Virus record (IMG/VR): IMGVR_UViG_3300035390_000012
Span: 1 to 25,343 of that record
Length of the DNA: 25,343 bases
Direction: 5' to 3' (one strand)
Origin: a virus
In this document: in pieces, positions 11,993-16,449 of the stretch
Position numbering within the stretch: the stretch's first letter is position 1
Layout: each line of letters starts with the position of its first letter
Translations under genes and position numbers: made by a program
The notes under the pieces: generated by a model
The model's database searches: none
Told to the model about the DNA's origin: nothing
What the model saw: the letters and a program-made list of their open reading frames with translations, nothing else

Positions 11993-12372
11993 CAGCCGTT
12001 ATCCTTCTTGTACTGCTCGAAGGCGACAAGAACCTCTTCGCCGTTGACGTTGTAACCGAGCTTTGCCTCAACCGAATCGACGCGAGGCGTACCGGCCTTG
12101 GTGAAGTCAGTTTCCTTGTCCAGATCACCGATAGCCTTGGCGATGGCCGCCAGCAGATCATCGGTATTTTCCGGTTTGGTTGGCACGGGCTCGGCTTCGG
12201 ACGTACCGTCCTCATCCTCAAGATAGCCGACGATGAGCATGGGCTCTGCCTCAAGAATTTTCACTTGCTCTTCACTGAAATGATCAGTTTCCCAAATGGT
12301 TTCCTTGACGGAGTGAGCCTCGCCGCATCGACGGAAGCCTTCACGCCTGGATATAATGACTACCTTGGGCAT
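11992..12372 (-). CDS. Mu gp35-like protein (HI1506 family)
   Basis: The 126-residue protein reads MPKVVIISRREGFRRCGEAH, then DHFSEEQVKILEAEPMLIVG, a signature of the short FluMu/HI1506 and Mu gp35 proteins found directly after the major capsid gene. The first 55 residues form the conserved domain. The remainder is an acidic linker and a C-terminal LeVNGEEVLVAFEQY-type segment. The biochemical role is unknown; a connector or capsid-associated function is inferred from position. TAGGAGG is placed about seven bases upstream of the ATG. Confidence 0.85.
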   Translation of the reverse strand: MPKVVIISRREGFRRCGEAHSVKETIWETDHFSEEQVKILEAEPMLIVGYLEDEDGTSEAEPVPTKPENTDDLLAAIAKAIGDLDKETDFTKAGTPRVDSVEAKLGYNVNGEEVLVAFEQYKKDNG

Positions 12373-13690: not shown

Positions 13691-14311
13691 CTAGCTATCC
13701 TCCTTGAGGGATTTGGTGAAATCCTCTTCGGACAGGCCGAGGTTGTGGCAGACGGCGCGCTCCGAATCGGAAAGCGAATTTTTGCCGGTTTTAGGTTCAT
13801 CCGGCAGCTTCGGATTATCGATGACCTTGGGCGCGGACTCGGCGAACTTCTGGAATTCTTCCAGGCCGTCGTCTTTGCGGCACATGGACACGTAGAAGTC
13901 CTTGTTGGCCGGAGCGATCTTGCCGTCCTTGATGGCCGTGTTGACGGCTATCTCGATCTTGCCATCGAGATCAGCATCGTCGCGTTGCTTGAGACCAGTC
14001 TCGGCAGTCTCGGCGCGATTGATGGCCATATCGTAGTCCGAGCGTAAAACGTACTTGGTCAGATCAAGGGTGGCACCAACGCCCTGGATGCTGTTCAAAG
14101 CCTTGTCATCACCGGTCAGCGTCTTGGCCTGGGCGATGACCTGATCCATTCCGGCGTTCTCCTCCAGACCGAGAACGGAAAGCAGTTCCTTGGTCATGAC
14201 TCGGTTGCTTGCCGTATCCAAATCTCCCTTGAGTTTGGAAACGGCATCCTGAATTTCCTGATCGGATGCCGTTTCCAGCAATCCGAGCAGACGGCACAAT
14301 GCCTTTTTCAT
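13691..14311 (-). CDS. Z: Capsid scaffold protein Z (internal in-frame start within I)
   Basis: Inside the protease gene, codon 162 (ATG at 14311) is preceded by GGAGGAAG with eight bases between GGAGG and the ATG, a far better ribosome site than the one in front of the full gene. Starting there gives a 206-residue, highly helical acidic protein (MKKALCRLLGLLETASDQEI at its start, AVCHNLGLSEEDFTKSLKED at its end). This is the size and nature of Mu gpZ, the scaffold around which the capsid shell forms and which the protease then degrades. The internal start is seen in the sequence; the role is from Mu. Confidence 0.78.
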   Translation of the reverse strand: MKKALCRLLGLLETASDQEIQDAVSKLKGDLDTASNRVMTKELLSVLGLEENAGMDQVIAQAKTLTGDDKALNSIQGVGATLDLTKYVLRSDYDMAINRAETAETGLKQRDDADLDGKIEIAVNTAIKDGKIAPANKDFYVSMCRKDDGLEEFQKFAESAPKVIDNPKLPDEPKTGKNSLSDSERAVCHNLGLSEEDFTKSLKEDS

Positions 14312-14794
14312 GGTGTCTTCCTCCATGTTTGTCGCCCGCCGGTTAAGGGCCGTCAGGCGAAGGTTGGGTTTATTGGTCAGACCGGCAGACTCCAGAACCC
14401 GGATTGCGCGGTCAGTCTTGGTGTAGGAAAAAACGGGAGAGAGGTAGCGATATTCACGGCTCTCGATTTGAGCCTTGGCGCGATCCGTCCATTCGACTCG
14501 CCCCCACAGGGCTCCGTTTCGATCTTCCATCTCCTTGATCCATCCGGCGGCCGGGGCTTCTTCGCCCTCCGCGCCCTTGATCTCGGTGGCGTGTTCGCGG
14601 TCAATGACCAAATCGAGCCCATCGAATTCATAGCGGTTTATAACGTGGAAGATTTCGTAACTGCCGAATTTCCATTCTCGGCCGTCTCGCCCCTTGACCA
14701 TAGGGCCAGCAGGAATCAACTCGACCCACTCGGGAGCAATGGCCGGGAGTTTTACATTGAGAGCGAAAAGAAGATGTTTCATGACCGGCAGCAT
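13691..14794 (-). CDS. I: Head maturation protease I (with in-frame scaffold Z)
   Basis: The 367-residue protein is Mu gpI-like. The N-terminal half (residues about 5-150) is the self-processing capsid protease: KHLLFALNVKLPAIAPEWVE, FDGLDLVIDREHATEIKGAE with the candidate catalytic His in DREHAT, and YRYLSPVFSYTKT, in which the Ser is a conserved active-site candidate. The C-terminal half (from residue about 160) is the helical scaffold, also made separately. It is the first gene of the head/tail operon. Neither Met1 (14794) nor Met5 (14782) has a good ribosome site, so the start is uncertain by a few residues. A dyad shared with the lysis operon lies just upstream. Confidence 0.9.
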   Translation of the reverse strand: MLPVMKHLLFALNVKLPAIAPEWVELIPAGPMVKGRDGREWKFGSYEIFHVINRYEFDGLDLVIDREHATEIKGAEGEEAPAAGWIKEMEDRNGALWGRVEWTDRAKAQIESREYRYLSPVFSYTKTDRAIRVLESAGLTNKPNLRLTALNRRATNMEEDTMKKALCRLLGLLETASDQEIQDAVSKLKGDLDTASNRVMTKELLSVLGLEENAGMDQVIAQAKTLTGDDKALNSIQGVGATLDLTKYVLRSDYDMAINRAETAETGLKQRDDADLDGKIEIAVNTAIKDGKIAPANKDFYVSMCRKDDGLEEFQKFAESAPKVIDNPKLPDEPKTGKNSLSDSERAVCHNLGLSEEDFTKSLKEDS

Positions 14795-14804
14795 GGCAGG
14801 AAGG

Positions 14805-14819
14805 CAGGACCAAGTCCTG
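14805..14819 (-). other. Hairpin at the head of the head/tail operon
   Basis: On the minus strand CAGGAC-TTG-GTCCTG forms a perfect six-base-pair stem with a three-base loop, ten bases upstream of the first candidate start of protease I. It directly abuts the shared GTAAC-N4-GTTAC dyad and lacks a T-run, so it is not a terminator. If transcription starts near it, it would lie at the 5' end of the late mRNA and could stabilise the message or limit translation of I. Confidence 0.5.
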
Positions 14820-14837
14820 TAACAGGCGTTACTAAAT
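14818..14837 (-). promoter_or_regulatory. Putative late-activator site upstream of the head operon
   Basis: This 20-base block is identical at 19 of 20 positions to 22264-22283 upstream of the lysis operon, and both copies point in the same direction relative to their operon. Its core on the minus strand is GTAAC-GCCT-GTTAC, a five-base inverted repeat with a four-base centre. Mu late operons are switched on by the dimeric activator C binding dyads next to weak promoters, and position here suggests an equivalent. No standard -35 is seen. The activator gene is not in the window. Confidence 0.6.
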
Positions 14838-15163
14838 CCCCTGCTCTGGAAAGGGCGATGCCAGTGACGGACAGGAATTCACAGCCGAGCGGCCGATTCA
14901 ACCACGTTCAAAACGATTCATGAACGGGCTACGGCACATTTTTGTTTAAAAATCAACGGACGGGACGCGAGATAGAGGCTAAATGCGTTCTGAGACGTTT
15001 TTCGAGCACCTCACATTGACGTGGGGAGCAGGAAGCCTTATTATCGTATTAAGCTGGTTGCGACACGGTGATGAATCTCCCGGCCGTAACACGGTGCTTG
15101 CACCGGAGTGCTATGCAGGGTTTCCGGCTTGTCCGGATGGGAGGCCCTGCCAGCCAGCGAAGA
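14833..15163. other. Non-coding gap between gp30 and protease I
   Basis: About 395 bases (14795-15189) separate the gp30 and I genes, the longest stretch without a convincing gene. The part at 14840-14990 shows nothing clear: no ribosome site with a usable frame and no strong promoter on either strand. The part at 15016-15191 holds the plus-strand promoter, the structured RNA candidate and the terminator listed separately. A plus-strand frame that starts at 14983 and runs into the gp30 gene has no ribosome site and lies opposite coding sequence, so it is not accepted as a gene. Confidence 0.6.
15016..15044 (+). promoter_or_regulatory. Near-consensus sigma70 promoter for a small RNA
   Basis: TTGACG (15016-15021) and TATTAT (15039-15044) are separated by exactly 17 bases on the plus strand, matching ten of the twelve consensus positions of a housekeeping promoter. 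The predicted start is near 15051. No open frame with a ribosome site follows; a structured stretch and a terminator do. All known genes nearby run the other way. Confidence 0.65.
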
Positions 15164-15197
15164 AAAACCCCTTGCCTCGGCGAGGGGTTTTACTTTT
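15051..15197 (+). ncRNA. Candidate structured small RNA (about 145 nt)
   Basis: The predicted transcript begins just after a near-consensus promoter and ends at a strong terminator. Its 5' end GCTGGTT (15053-15059) pairs with AGCCAGC (15152-15158, one G-U pair), closing the whole molecule. Inside are CGGTG-CTTG-CACCG (15092-15105), an outer stem GCAGGG/CCCTGC (15115-15120 with 15145-15150) and, within that, TCCGG-CTTGT-CCGGA (15123-15137). Closing stem, internal hairpins and terminator together are the plan of a stable independent RNA. I do not recognise a family. It converges on the 3' end of the MuF-nuclease gene, so read-through would be antisense to it. Function is unknown; regulation of that gene or of host mRNAs is only a possibility. 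Confidence 0.5.
15164..15191. terminator. Intrinsic terminator, probably bidirectional
   Basis: AAAACCCCT pairs with AGGGGTTTT around an inner GCC/GGC stem and a short CTCG loop, about 13 base pairs with one T-G pair. On the minus strand the hairpin is followed by T-rich sequence (TTTTTCTT), ending the lysis/packaging operon directly at the gp30 stop codon, which lies inside the stem. On the plus strand it is followed by TTTTACTTTT and would end the small RNA. Confidence 0.8.
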
Positions 15198-16449
15198 GGC
15201 GACGACGCAGCCGGATGATCTCACGATCACGCTTGCCGCCCTCGGAAGACAACCGCCGAAAGCTCGTCATGAACATGGCCTTGCCGGACTTAGTTGCCTT
15301 CACCACTGTCACGTAACCTTCTTCCTCAAGCAGATAGACCAGACTGCGCGATCCATCCTGAATAGGTTCACCGCGATCAAAAGCGTCCTGAATAAAAACG
15401 TATTCCTTGAAGTCCAGTTCAGGGTGTTCCCTGAGTTGTTTGTCCAGCGTATCCGGTGAGAGTCGGACCAACCTGGTCTTGCCGCCGATCCTGACCGCGT
15501 CATCTTCGGCCATCATGCCGATGGGAAAATCAGCCTTGGGTGACTTTGACCATGTCTCCAGAGTTTCAGCGGTCAGCTCACGGACAACGGCCGCGCCCTC
15601 AGCTCCAGCATTGGTCAGCTTCTTTGCGGTGATGTCCAGTGCCTGATTCAACCGTCCAACTTTTCCGGGGTTGTAATCCCATCCGGGATCAACGCCCATT
15701 GGTACCTGATGGACTTCGCCAGTCCGCCGATTGATATACTCGCGTGTTCTAATGGCTGGGGCTTCGGTTCGCACCTTCACGTTTAACGGTGAACGATGGC
15801 CAGTTGGCAATCTGGTCTCTGGGTTAATCACCTGTTCCGGAGCCGGAGCTCGAACCCCGTCACGCACCAGTCGGCCATGCTCTGCTTTGGAAACTTGTCG
15901 AACGTGGCACTTGCAGCCCCATCCATTGGGTGTCATATGCGTGCCCCAGAAAGAATCATCCACGGGAAGCAGCAAGCCATGAAAGGCAATGTGTTCTGGT
16001 CTGTGCTCGCGGGACGGGCCGAGTTGATAGAGGAGGTACGGCAGTCCGGCTTTGGTGCGCTGGATGCGTTCCCATTGCCCGGCGCTGCGAGCTGTGCGCA
16101 TGTTGGTATCGTAGATAATTTTGAGTCGCCGCGGGCTTCCGAGCTGCACAATCCGCGTTTTACCCGTGGCCGGATCAAGCATTTCCTTTGCGCCCCACCA
16201 GCCTTTCTTCTGAAGTGTCGGCTTCAAGTCCTTGGCAAAGTCGCGGAAGGCTTTGCCTTCTGCCAGAGCGCGATCCACTTCGCCGCGAATGTCAGACAGA
16301 ATGTCCATCTGGGTGGCCTTGGCCACAGTGAAGGCGGTAGCGTGTTCCTCTCCCCAGACGTCCCGATGATCGAAACCGGGCTTCATATCCTTGGCGCGGA
16401 ACCATTCCAGTGTTTCCTTGGGCGGACGTCTGACAAACTTACCTGCCAT
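15190..16449 (-). CDS. F: MuF minor head protein (Mu gp30/F) with C-terminal nuclease-like domain
   Basis: The 419-residue protein has two parts. Residues about 40-190 are the MuF/SPP1 gp7 head-morphogenesis domain, with HGLLLPVDDSFWGTH (157-171) and NGWGCKC (175-181). Such proteins bind the portal and are packaged in the head. Residues about 305-400 (LVRLSPDTLDKQLREHPELD, YVFIQDAFDRGEPI, YVTVVKATKSGKAMFMTSFR) resemble the PBECR group of Barnase/EndoU/ColicinE5/RelE-like nuclease domains found fused to MuF proteins and thought to be injected with phage DNA. Classical Mu F lacks such an evident toxin-like end. No immunity gene is adjacent. The MuF call is firm; the C-terminal call is recognition from memory of the pattern and is moderate. 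Confidence 0.88.
   Translation of the reverse strand: MAGKFVRRPPKETLEWFRAKDMKPGFDHRDVWGEEHATAFTVAKATQMDILSDIRGEVDRALAEGKAFRDFAKDLKPTLQKKGWWGAKEMLDPATGKTRIVQLGSPRRLKIIYDTNMRTARSAGQWERIQRTKAGLPYLLYQLGPSREHRPEHIAFHGLLLPVDDSFWGTHMTPNGWGCKCHVRQVSKAEHGRLVRDGVRAPAPEQVINPETRLPTGHRSPLNVKVRTEAPAIRTREYINRRTGEVHQVPMGVDPGWDYNPGKVGRLNQALDITAKKLTNAGAEGAAVVRELTAETLETWSKSPKADFPIGMMAEDDAVRIGGKTRLVRLSPDTLDKQLREHPELDFKEYVFIQDAFDRGEPIQDGSRSLVYLLEEEGYVTVVKATKSGKAMFMTSFRRLSSEGGKRDREIIRLRRRQK

Follow-up and report, generated by a model that had tools for sequence, protein, structure and literature searches.

A pseudoknotted RNA gene converging on muF in Mu-like phages, possibly an antidote to the nuclease-like domain of the MuF head protein

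Why should a phage keep a housekeeping-type promoter, directed against both neighbouring genes, in the short gap between its protease and minor head protein genes? The question is raised by the stretch of 25,343 nucleotides (nt) analysed here (the window), positions 1 to 25,343 of IMG/VR virus record IMGVR_UViG_3300035390_000012, a Mu-like phage genome in which portal, terminase, gpT and sheath genes were all found. The gap is 395 nt long and lies between gene I, for the protease, and muF, both on the minus strand. A sequence-only reading of the window had proposed that the plus strand carries an independent phage RNA gene here, complete with promoter, closed fold and terminator, and this is borne out by covariation and promoter conservation among relatives: positions 15016-15195 are a gene for a structured RNA of about 105 nt, which has a sigma70-type promoter to itself and is predicted to be expressed. 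As to its function, the odds seem to us about even that this pseudoknotted RNA serves as an antidote, in other words an immunity RNA, against a predicted RNase domain of BECR fold in MuF, the phage's own head protein.

Without the terminator, the fold of the window RNA only moderately beats shuffled sequences when a single sequence is considered (z-score -1.9, against -2.6 for the reverse strand and -4.5 with the terminator), so the case for an RNA rests on comparison. In alignment A1, 95.4% of cells are paired and there are 134 double-change cells, against 39 after shuffling; among 45 members that were not selected by the core search pattern, 95.3% are paired and double-change cells number 241 against 61, while slid controls on the same 45 members all fall at 41-49%. 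Covariation is thus far above every control, and support for the predicted fold, including its pseudoknot, is overwhelming. The three plain internal hairpins proposed from the sequence alone give way to P2, P3 and P4/P5 plus a pseudoknot between the loops of P2 and P4 (Table 1). P1 closes the molecule and shows double-sided changes in 6-7 of its 7 modelled pairs; P2 covaries weakly because it is mostly invariant; P3 is variable, with a covarying stem and a basal x:y pair that is G-C, A-U or C-G in 102 of 104 members. One position of the pseudoknot is U-A in 89 and C-G in 22 of 111 members and is broken in none. Ten exactly complementary versions of it occur among members that the core pattern had not picked out (5' strands CUCCC, CUGCC, CUUCC, CCCCA, CCGGC, CCCCC, CUCCG, CUCUC, CUCCU and CUGCA), and two more were seen by eye, CUUGC:GCAAG at locus L038 and CUGGA:UCCAG at L301. 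A coding role was considered and rejected, since the length of the core varies in all three frames and the GGAG-ATG frame is not kept.

The promoter, TTGACG-17-TATTAT, is present as described and is the only sigma70-like site of at least 9/12 in the gap, where 0.1 would be expected. The stronger statement, that it is the only strong promoter of the window, holds for the gap but not beyond it: the 10-20 kb region has four such sites (4.9 expected), among them a second one of 10/12 at 12328, inside a gene. Comparison of homologous gaps, the check suggested at the outset, revealed both a retained promoter and compensatory changes in the stems. The related loci L002 and L003, whose RNAs are 90-95% identical to that of the window, keep TTGACG-17-TATTRT around an altered 17-nt spacer, and promoter conservation extends across the family: upstream of 80 muF-linked copies the promoter score is 7.3, against 5.3 +/- 0.23 for shuffled sequences (about 9 standard deviations), and the start of the -10 element peaks at a nearly fixed place, 24-28 nt ahead of the core CGGTGA. 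In copies without an adjacent muF (solo copies) the signal is weaker, 5.9 against 4.8 +/- 0.4. At its other end the RNA is followed directly by a GC stem and T run. This terminator hairpin reaches the muF stop codon and, being near-palindromic, can end the muF transcript on the minus strand as well as the RNA on the plus strand; it is lineage-specific, and in many relatives P1 and a U run do the same job. As had been anticipated, the RNA converges on the 3' end of muF, its predicted end lying at or just before the stop codon.

The family is large and apparently undescribed so far. A search with the core pattern matched at least 81 IMG/VR and at least 80 GTDB stretches, and the whole RNA is present in 139 of the pattern matches listed, 111 of them distinct. 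A covariance model (R1), built from 24 pattern-found sequences, then found the RNA in L009, L038, L039 and L041-L045, MuF loci fetched by protein similarity alone. About 1,400 genomes were sampled in total, in sets that each contain a centre genome already known to carry the RNA, and with taxon names inferred; R1 located it in 10 of 385 alphaproteobacterial genomes, 7 of 369 gammaproteobacterial genomes, 15 of 248 from a Rhodospirillales-centred order, 30 of 297 from a Desulfovibrionaceae-centred class and 3 of 99 from the order of Roseithermus. Pattern and model together place the family at more than 150 phage and bacterial loci, mostly of Proteobacteria and Desulfovibrionia. An Rfam search, also suggested beforehand, returned no matching family: in Rfam 15 none reached the gathering threshold at this site in the window and 14 relatives, nor for L206, the best sub-threshold match being rnk_pseudo (22 bits against a cut-off of 55), and relaxed thresholds yielded none that was credible. 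Self-cleaving ribozymes of the hammerhead, twister and other classes have been linked to Mu-like phages (PMC10085705), and no Rfam ribozyme model, of these or other classes, matched the site in the window or the 14 relatives. BLAST of representative RNAs gave zero matches in cultured phages, plasmids and E. coli genomes, and a protein search of genome contigs with the protease as query also gave none. Literature searches, whose coverage left out most subscription papers, met no account of an RNA like this one. A large structured RNA class that is absent from Rfam 15 would thereby be added to what the temperate phages of many bacteria carry. Row L172raw was left out of one alignment of the study, A6.

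What the RNA converges on is the BECR-like domain that forms the C-terminus of MuF (residues ~235-419). The AlphaFold2 model of this domain has a predicted local distance difference test score (pLDDT) of 92, and its top structural matches were the colicin D tRNase (Z 6.2), BrnT (5.9), a CdiA toxin (5.2) and RelE (4.6). Colicin D, BrnT, CdiA toxins and RelE share the BECR fold, and the model suggests a BECR-like RNase fold for the MuF domain, with nuclease activity predicted. The Pfam family PBECR3 (PF18812) was matched weakly by 9 of 74 relatives (best E 9e-5). In RNA-linked MuF proteins the domain carries the conserved motif KQxxxHPEL...VVKATxxGxxxFxTSFRR. These results agree with a passage of Iyer et al. 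2017 (PMC5512222) in which MuF-linked PBECR RNases are predicted, the version in Mu gp30 being predicted there to be inactive and probably RNA-binding.

The RNA and this domain are closely linked. Among the 111 distinct pattern-found loci, in the matches listed, the RNA is convergent on and abuts a MuF reading frame with the C-terminal domain at 70, and the domain lies within a few kb of it at 4 more; at about two thirds of loci, then, the RNA converges on a muF gene that encodes the BECR-like domain. Within the 385 alphaproteobacterial genomes, 10 have the RNA, 13 the domain and 7 both (p = 8e-10), and 10 of the 14 RNA copies adjoin the domain. At loci found through MuF the RNA is confined to those with the C-terminal domain; no match was obtained in the domain-less relatives L015, L018, L030, L032, L034-L036, L040 and L046, some of which are contig fragments.

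Linkage extends to the state of the predicted active site. The His of the first helix and the C-terminal Ser/Thr are both present in the window domain, and among type A-linked members of alignment A2 the His is kept in 59 of 60 and the Ser/Thr in all 60. With the genome-found domains added (34 of 34), the catalytic His is present in 93 of 94 RNA-linked domains, the exception having Arg, and the Ser/Thr is kept nearly always. In the MuF C-terminal domains of six RNA-less phages the His is lost, with Arg in its place (L010, L011, L012), Asp (B23 and Mu gp30) or Gly (SuMu), the alignment of Mu and SuMu being remote; in L010, L011, L012 and B23 the Ser/Thr is gone too. Counted by lineage, presence of the RNA is associated with an intact His at p = 1e-6.

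About one third of RNA copies have no MuF domain nearby. Of 22 genomes with solo RNA, 19 are without the domain anywhere, many of them being metagenome-assembled genomes and possibly incomplete. Solo copies can be single, tandem (genomes G010, G013, G1038, G1099, G1285 and G1322) or inverted (G007). Judged by eye from the sequences of open reading frames, their neighbours include genes resembling Mor, GemA and MuB that belong to other Mu-like prophages, and also HipBA- and HigBA-like pairs and PIN, FRG and restriction-like proteins, these likewise assigned by eye and not with hidden Markov models. The tandem copies of G013 are of two different RNA subtypes, side by side. At L318 the RNA stands beside an apparently truncated muF C-terminus (ending in AIKTTRTGKRCFF), as if the nuclease gene had decayed and the RNA had stayed.

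An RNA that is kept with an intact nuclease, missing with a dead one, and found alone in chromosomes and defence regions follows a pattern like that of an antidote. Under this proposal the RNA would be transcribed in the lysogen from its housekeeping-type promoter and would bind and block the RNase, or occupy it as a decoy substrate, so that MuF expressed late, or brought in by a related phage on superinfection, would not harm the cell; the solo copies that lie in defence regions and in other prophages may guard against incoming MuF nucleases. The wider form of the idea we put forward more tentatively, as possible but short of probable: that a new and widespread class of pseudoknotted immunity RNA neutralises the virion-carried, injected RNases of transposable phages, and that bacteria and rival prophages keep solo copies as a defence, some of them beside arrays of clustered regularly interspaced short palindromic repeats (CRISPR). 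Several observations weigh against an antidote. The structural Z-scores of the domain are modest (about 6, all below Z 8), and the window's own domain matches no curated Pfam RNase model, PBECR3 included. RNA distances track the N-terminal part of MuF (partial r 0.28) about as closely as they track the nuclease domain (0.29), so that co-inheritance alone could yield the linkage. The active-site contrast rests on six RNA-less phages from only about four lineages, Mu included, and L267, L269 and L270 have an intact His with no RNA recognised, where divergent RNAs are possible. Finally, an RNA that served an active nuclease as its cofactor or substrate would be expected to track the active site too.

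The last point leads to the alternative that survives best, although we regard it as unlikely: that the RNA helps the MuF nuclease, being required either for the nuclease to act or in assembly. It would then be a cofactor, a scaffold resembling a guide, or an RNA that is packaged with MuF in the head, loosely like the prohead RNA of phi29. Linkage and the active-site correlation are the same for this as for an antidote, and the unpaired positions of the core are strongly conserved, which suggests contact with protein. Solo copies, tandem ones among them, in genomes that lack the nuclease nevertheless suit protection better; Mu and Mu-like phages without the RNA assemble heads, and the RNA has a sigma70 promoter of its own instead of being under late control. 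A role in host regulation is less probable again. The RNA would then act in trans on a widely conserved component of the host (RNA polymerase, CsrA/Hfq or the ribosome), as its regulator or sponge, and would lie beside muF by history, which would suit the very broad host range, the invariant core and the chromosomal solo copies with promoters, but does not predict the tie to the MuF BECR domain and its active site. No Rfam regulator family was matched, and rRNA mimicry was tried and rejected: the likeness of CACGGTGAAT..TCCCGG to 16S positions 1366-1386 is no better than that of shuffles, for 16S and 23S alike, and that to 5S (p 0.04-0.06) is unconvincing over nine tests.

We rate slightly lower the chance that the RNA is CRISPR-related, as an anti-CRISPR RNA, an array-guarding RNA or a protector of CRISPR RNAs from PBECR RNases. 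CRISPR-like arrays lie about 60-160 nt from solo RNA at L245, L248, L251 and L261, about 110 nt from the tandem copies in G1322 (L349), and 0.6-1.0 kb away in G1035 and G340, while at L206 about 170 nt separate a P5-bearing, muF-linked RNA from a type I-F-like array, with muF, RNA and array all within 1 kb; CRISPR RNAs are, moreover, suggested as possible PBECR targets in a passage of Iyer et al. 2017 (PMC5512222). Of about 31 solo loci in the random samples, 4 have an array within 1.5 kb, many more than a rough genome background would give (p = 2e-6), but the excess over muF-linked loci of the same samples (4/31 against 0/34) is marginal (p = 0.046). Array-adjacent copies are also a minority, and the repeats of the arrays differ, the RNA resembling none by eye. 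Among the matches listed, spacers of the adjacent arrays matched, in the fetched loci, the same arrays and, over 21 nt, one other CRISPR-adjacent locus. Solo copies beside arrays were seen at L260 and L321 as well; CRISPR-adjacent solo copies were of the short, P5-less subtype where checked, next to arrays with differing repeats, and the RNA lay at the leader-distal end of the array where the repeat allowed a guess of its direction.

Control of muF by antisense pairing in cis, or by transcription interference at its 3' end, is very improbable. The convergent orientation and the end at the muF stop codon are in its favour, and the sequence-only reading had envisaged an RNA antisense to the nuclease domain, but it is the folded core that is conserved and not complementarity to muF, many copies have no adjacent muF, and overlap with muF coding sequence is confined to the last codons at most; the link of RNA and nuclease looks like a pairing of RNA with protein, not with mRNA. 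That the structure does no more than terminate transcription in both directions, or serve as a DNA element between the two genes, with no RNA acting in trans, is hardly credible given the conserved pseudoknot and promoter and the solo copies, even if in phage Mu a terminator and late promoter at the corresponding spot between muF and I separate operons.

If the RNA is an antidote, its nearest precedent is type III toxin-antitoxin (ToxIN; PMC5086642), in which an endoribonuclease toxin is paired with a pseudoknotted noncoding RNA antitoxin in phage conflict, just as RNase and antidote roles are predicted here. The ToxIN toxin stands alone, whereas here a BECR-type domain is fused to a virion head protein, and its RNA consists of short tandem repeats upstream of the toxin in one operon, whereas here there is a single convergent gene of about 105 nt with its own promoter; as nuclease fold, RNA and layout all differ, the locus is not filed there. 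Also comparable are the PBECR domains that Iyer et al. 2017 (PMC5512222) treat in MuF and in polyvalent proteins, those of MuF being likewise fused to its C-terminus, but the relevant passage of that paper names no RNA partner, while in the present family an RNA accompanies intact active sites and is missing from Mu and SuMu. The domain, for which that 2017 passage predicts RNase activity, or in Mu the binding of RNA without activity, thereby acquires a testable partner. MuF polymorphic toxins have protein immunity partners, whereas the candidate for immunity in the present family is an RNA. Such toxins, in which MuF proteins from temperate phages carry toxin domains at the C-terminus, are the subject of Jamet et al. 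2017 (PMC5576092). Phi29 prohead RNA is a phage RNA of about 100-170 nt with helices and loop-loop pairing; the present RNA is similarly small, helical and loop-paired, but differs in phage group and position and has no Rfam match. CreTA and CRISPR-associated RNAs (PMC9458426; PMC9067536) are comparable as small RNAs near CRISPR loci, but no likeness to CRISPR repeats was noticed in the present family, most copies are muF-linked, and the fold is independent of CRISPR type. An antidote role, if true, would mean a virion-delivered nuclease neutralised by RNA, and immunity RNAs kept as orphans in chromosomes and close to CRISPR arrays.

Table 1. Features of the RNA gene and its neighbours (window coordinates unless another numbering is given).
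Feature	Position	Strand	Basis or remarks
-35 hexamer TTGACG	15016-15021	+	sequence and promoter scan; kept in L002 and L003
-10 hexamer TATTAT	15039-15044	+	sequence and scan; 17 nt after -35; start expected near 15051
Structured RNA, type A	15051-15159	+	begins about 7 nt beyond the promoter; covariance model R1 match 15050-15158, E = 8e-25 (not independent, the window sequence being among the 24 of the model)
P1 5' strand GCTGGTTG	15053-15060	+	pairs with 15151-15158
P2 hairpin ACGG...CCGT	15065-15087	+	98-100% paired; conserved loop holds pseudoknot strand CUCCC
Pseudoknot 5' strand CTCCC	15077-15081	+	pairs with GGGAG 15139-15143
P3	15089-15109	+	basal AC:GT, 15089-15090 with 15108-15109; hairpin CGGTG-CTTG-CACCG 15092-15105
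P4 GCAGGG:CCCTGC	15115-15150	+	15115-15120 with 15145-15150
Optional P5 CCGG:CCGG	15124-15127 with 15133-15136	+	missing from short subtype
Pseudoknot 3' strand GGGAG	15139-15143	+	in P4 loop
P1 3' strand CAGCCAGC	15151-15158	+	pairs with 15053-15060
Terminator hairpin AAAACCCCTTGCC-TC-GGCGAGGGGTTTT	15163-15195	either	near-palindromic, intrinsic type; sequence and scan
muF, minor head protein	15190-16449	-	Pfam Phage_Mu_F, residues 53-183
Predicted active-site residues	His108, Lys150, Ser162		numbering of the 185-aa C-terminal piece of window MuF; alignment
Mu-like I protease/scaffold gene	13691-14794	-	Pfam Mu-like_Pro; upstream of and divergent from the RNA promoter

A compact RNA-like element of about 60-75 nt takes the same place and orientation in other MuF phages, one of them the cultured Ochrobactrum phage POA1180. 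In alignment A4 it is closed by a stem and carries GAGC(C/A)A and a terminal hairpin, and in several members complementarity of loop to hairpin could be seen by eye; it is at most a possible relative of type A. Compact or divergent candidates for structured RNAs, antisense after a muF with the BECR domain, were noted at L016, L017, L019, L021-L028, L031, L033, L037 and L210, and further ones at the same spot at L273, L275 and L292; the one at L275 belongs to type A, as a variant whose pseudoknot, CUCCU:AGGAG, is compensated. The rest of the gap in the window also contains candidate control sites. Between the RNA promoter and gene I, at 14906-14925, is an operator-like inverted repeat, GTTCAAAACGATTCATGAAC, kept in L002 and L003, and just upstream of gene I, at 14818-14834, is a palindrome, TGTAACAGGCGTTACTA, kept in L002 and a candidate activator site for a late promoter. 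Paired CGTTTAA/CGTTAGA repeats occupy the same gap in other loci.
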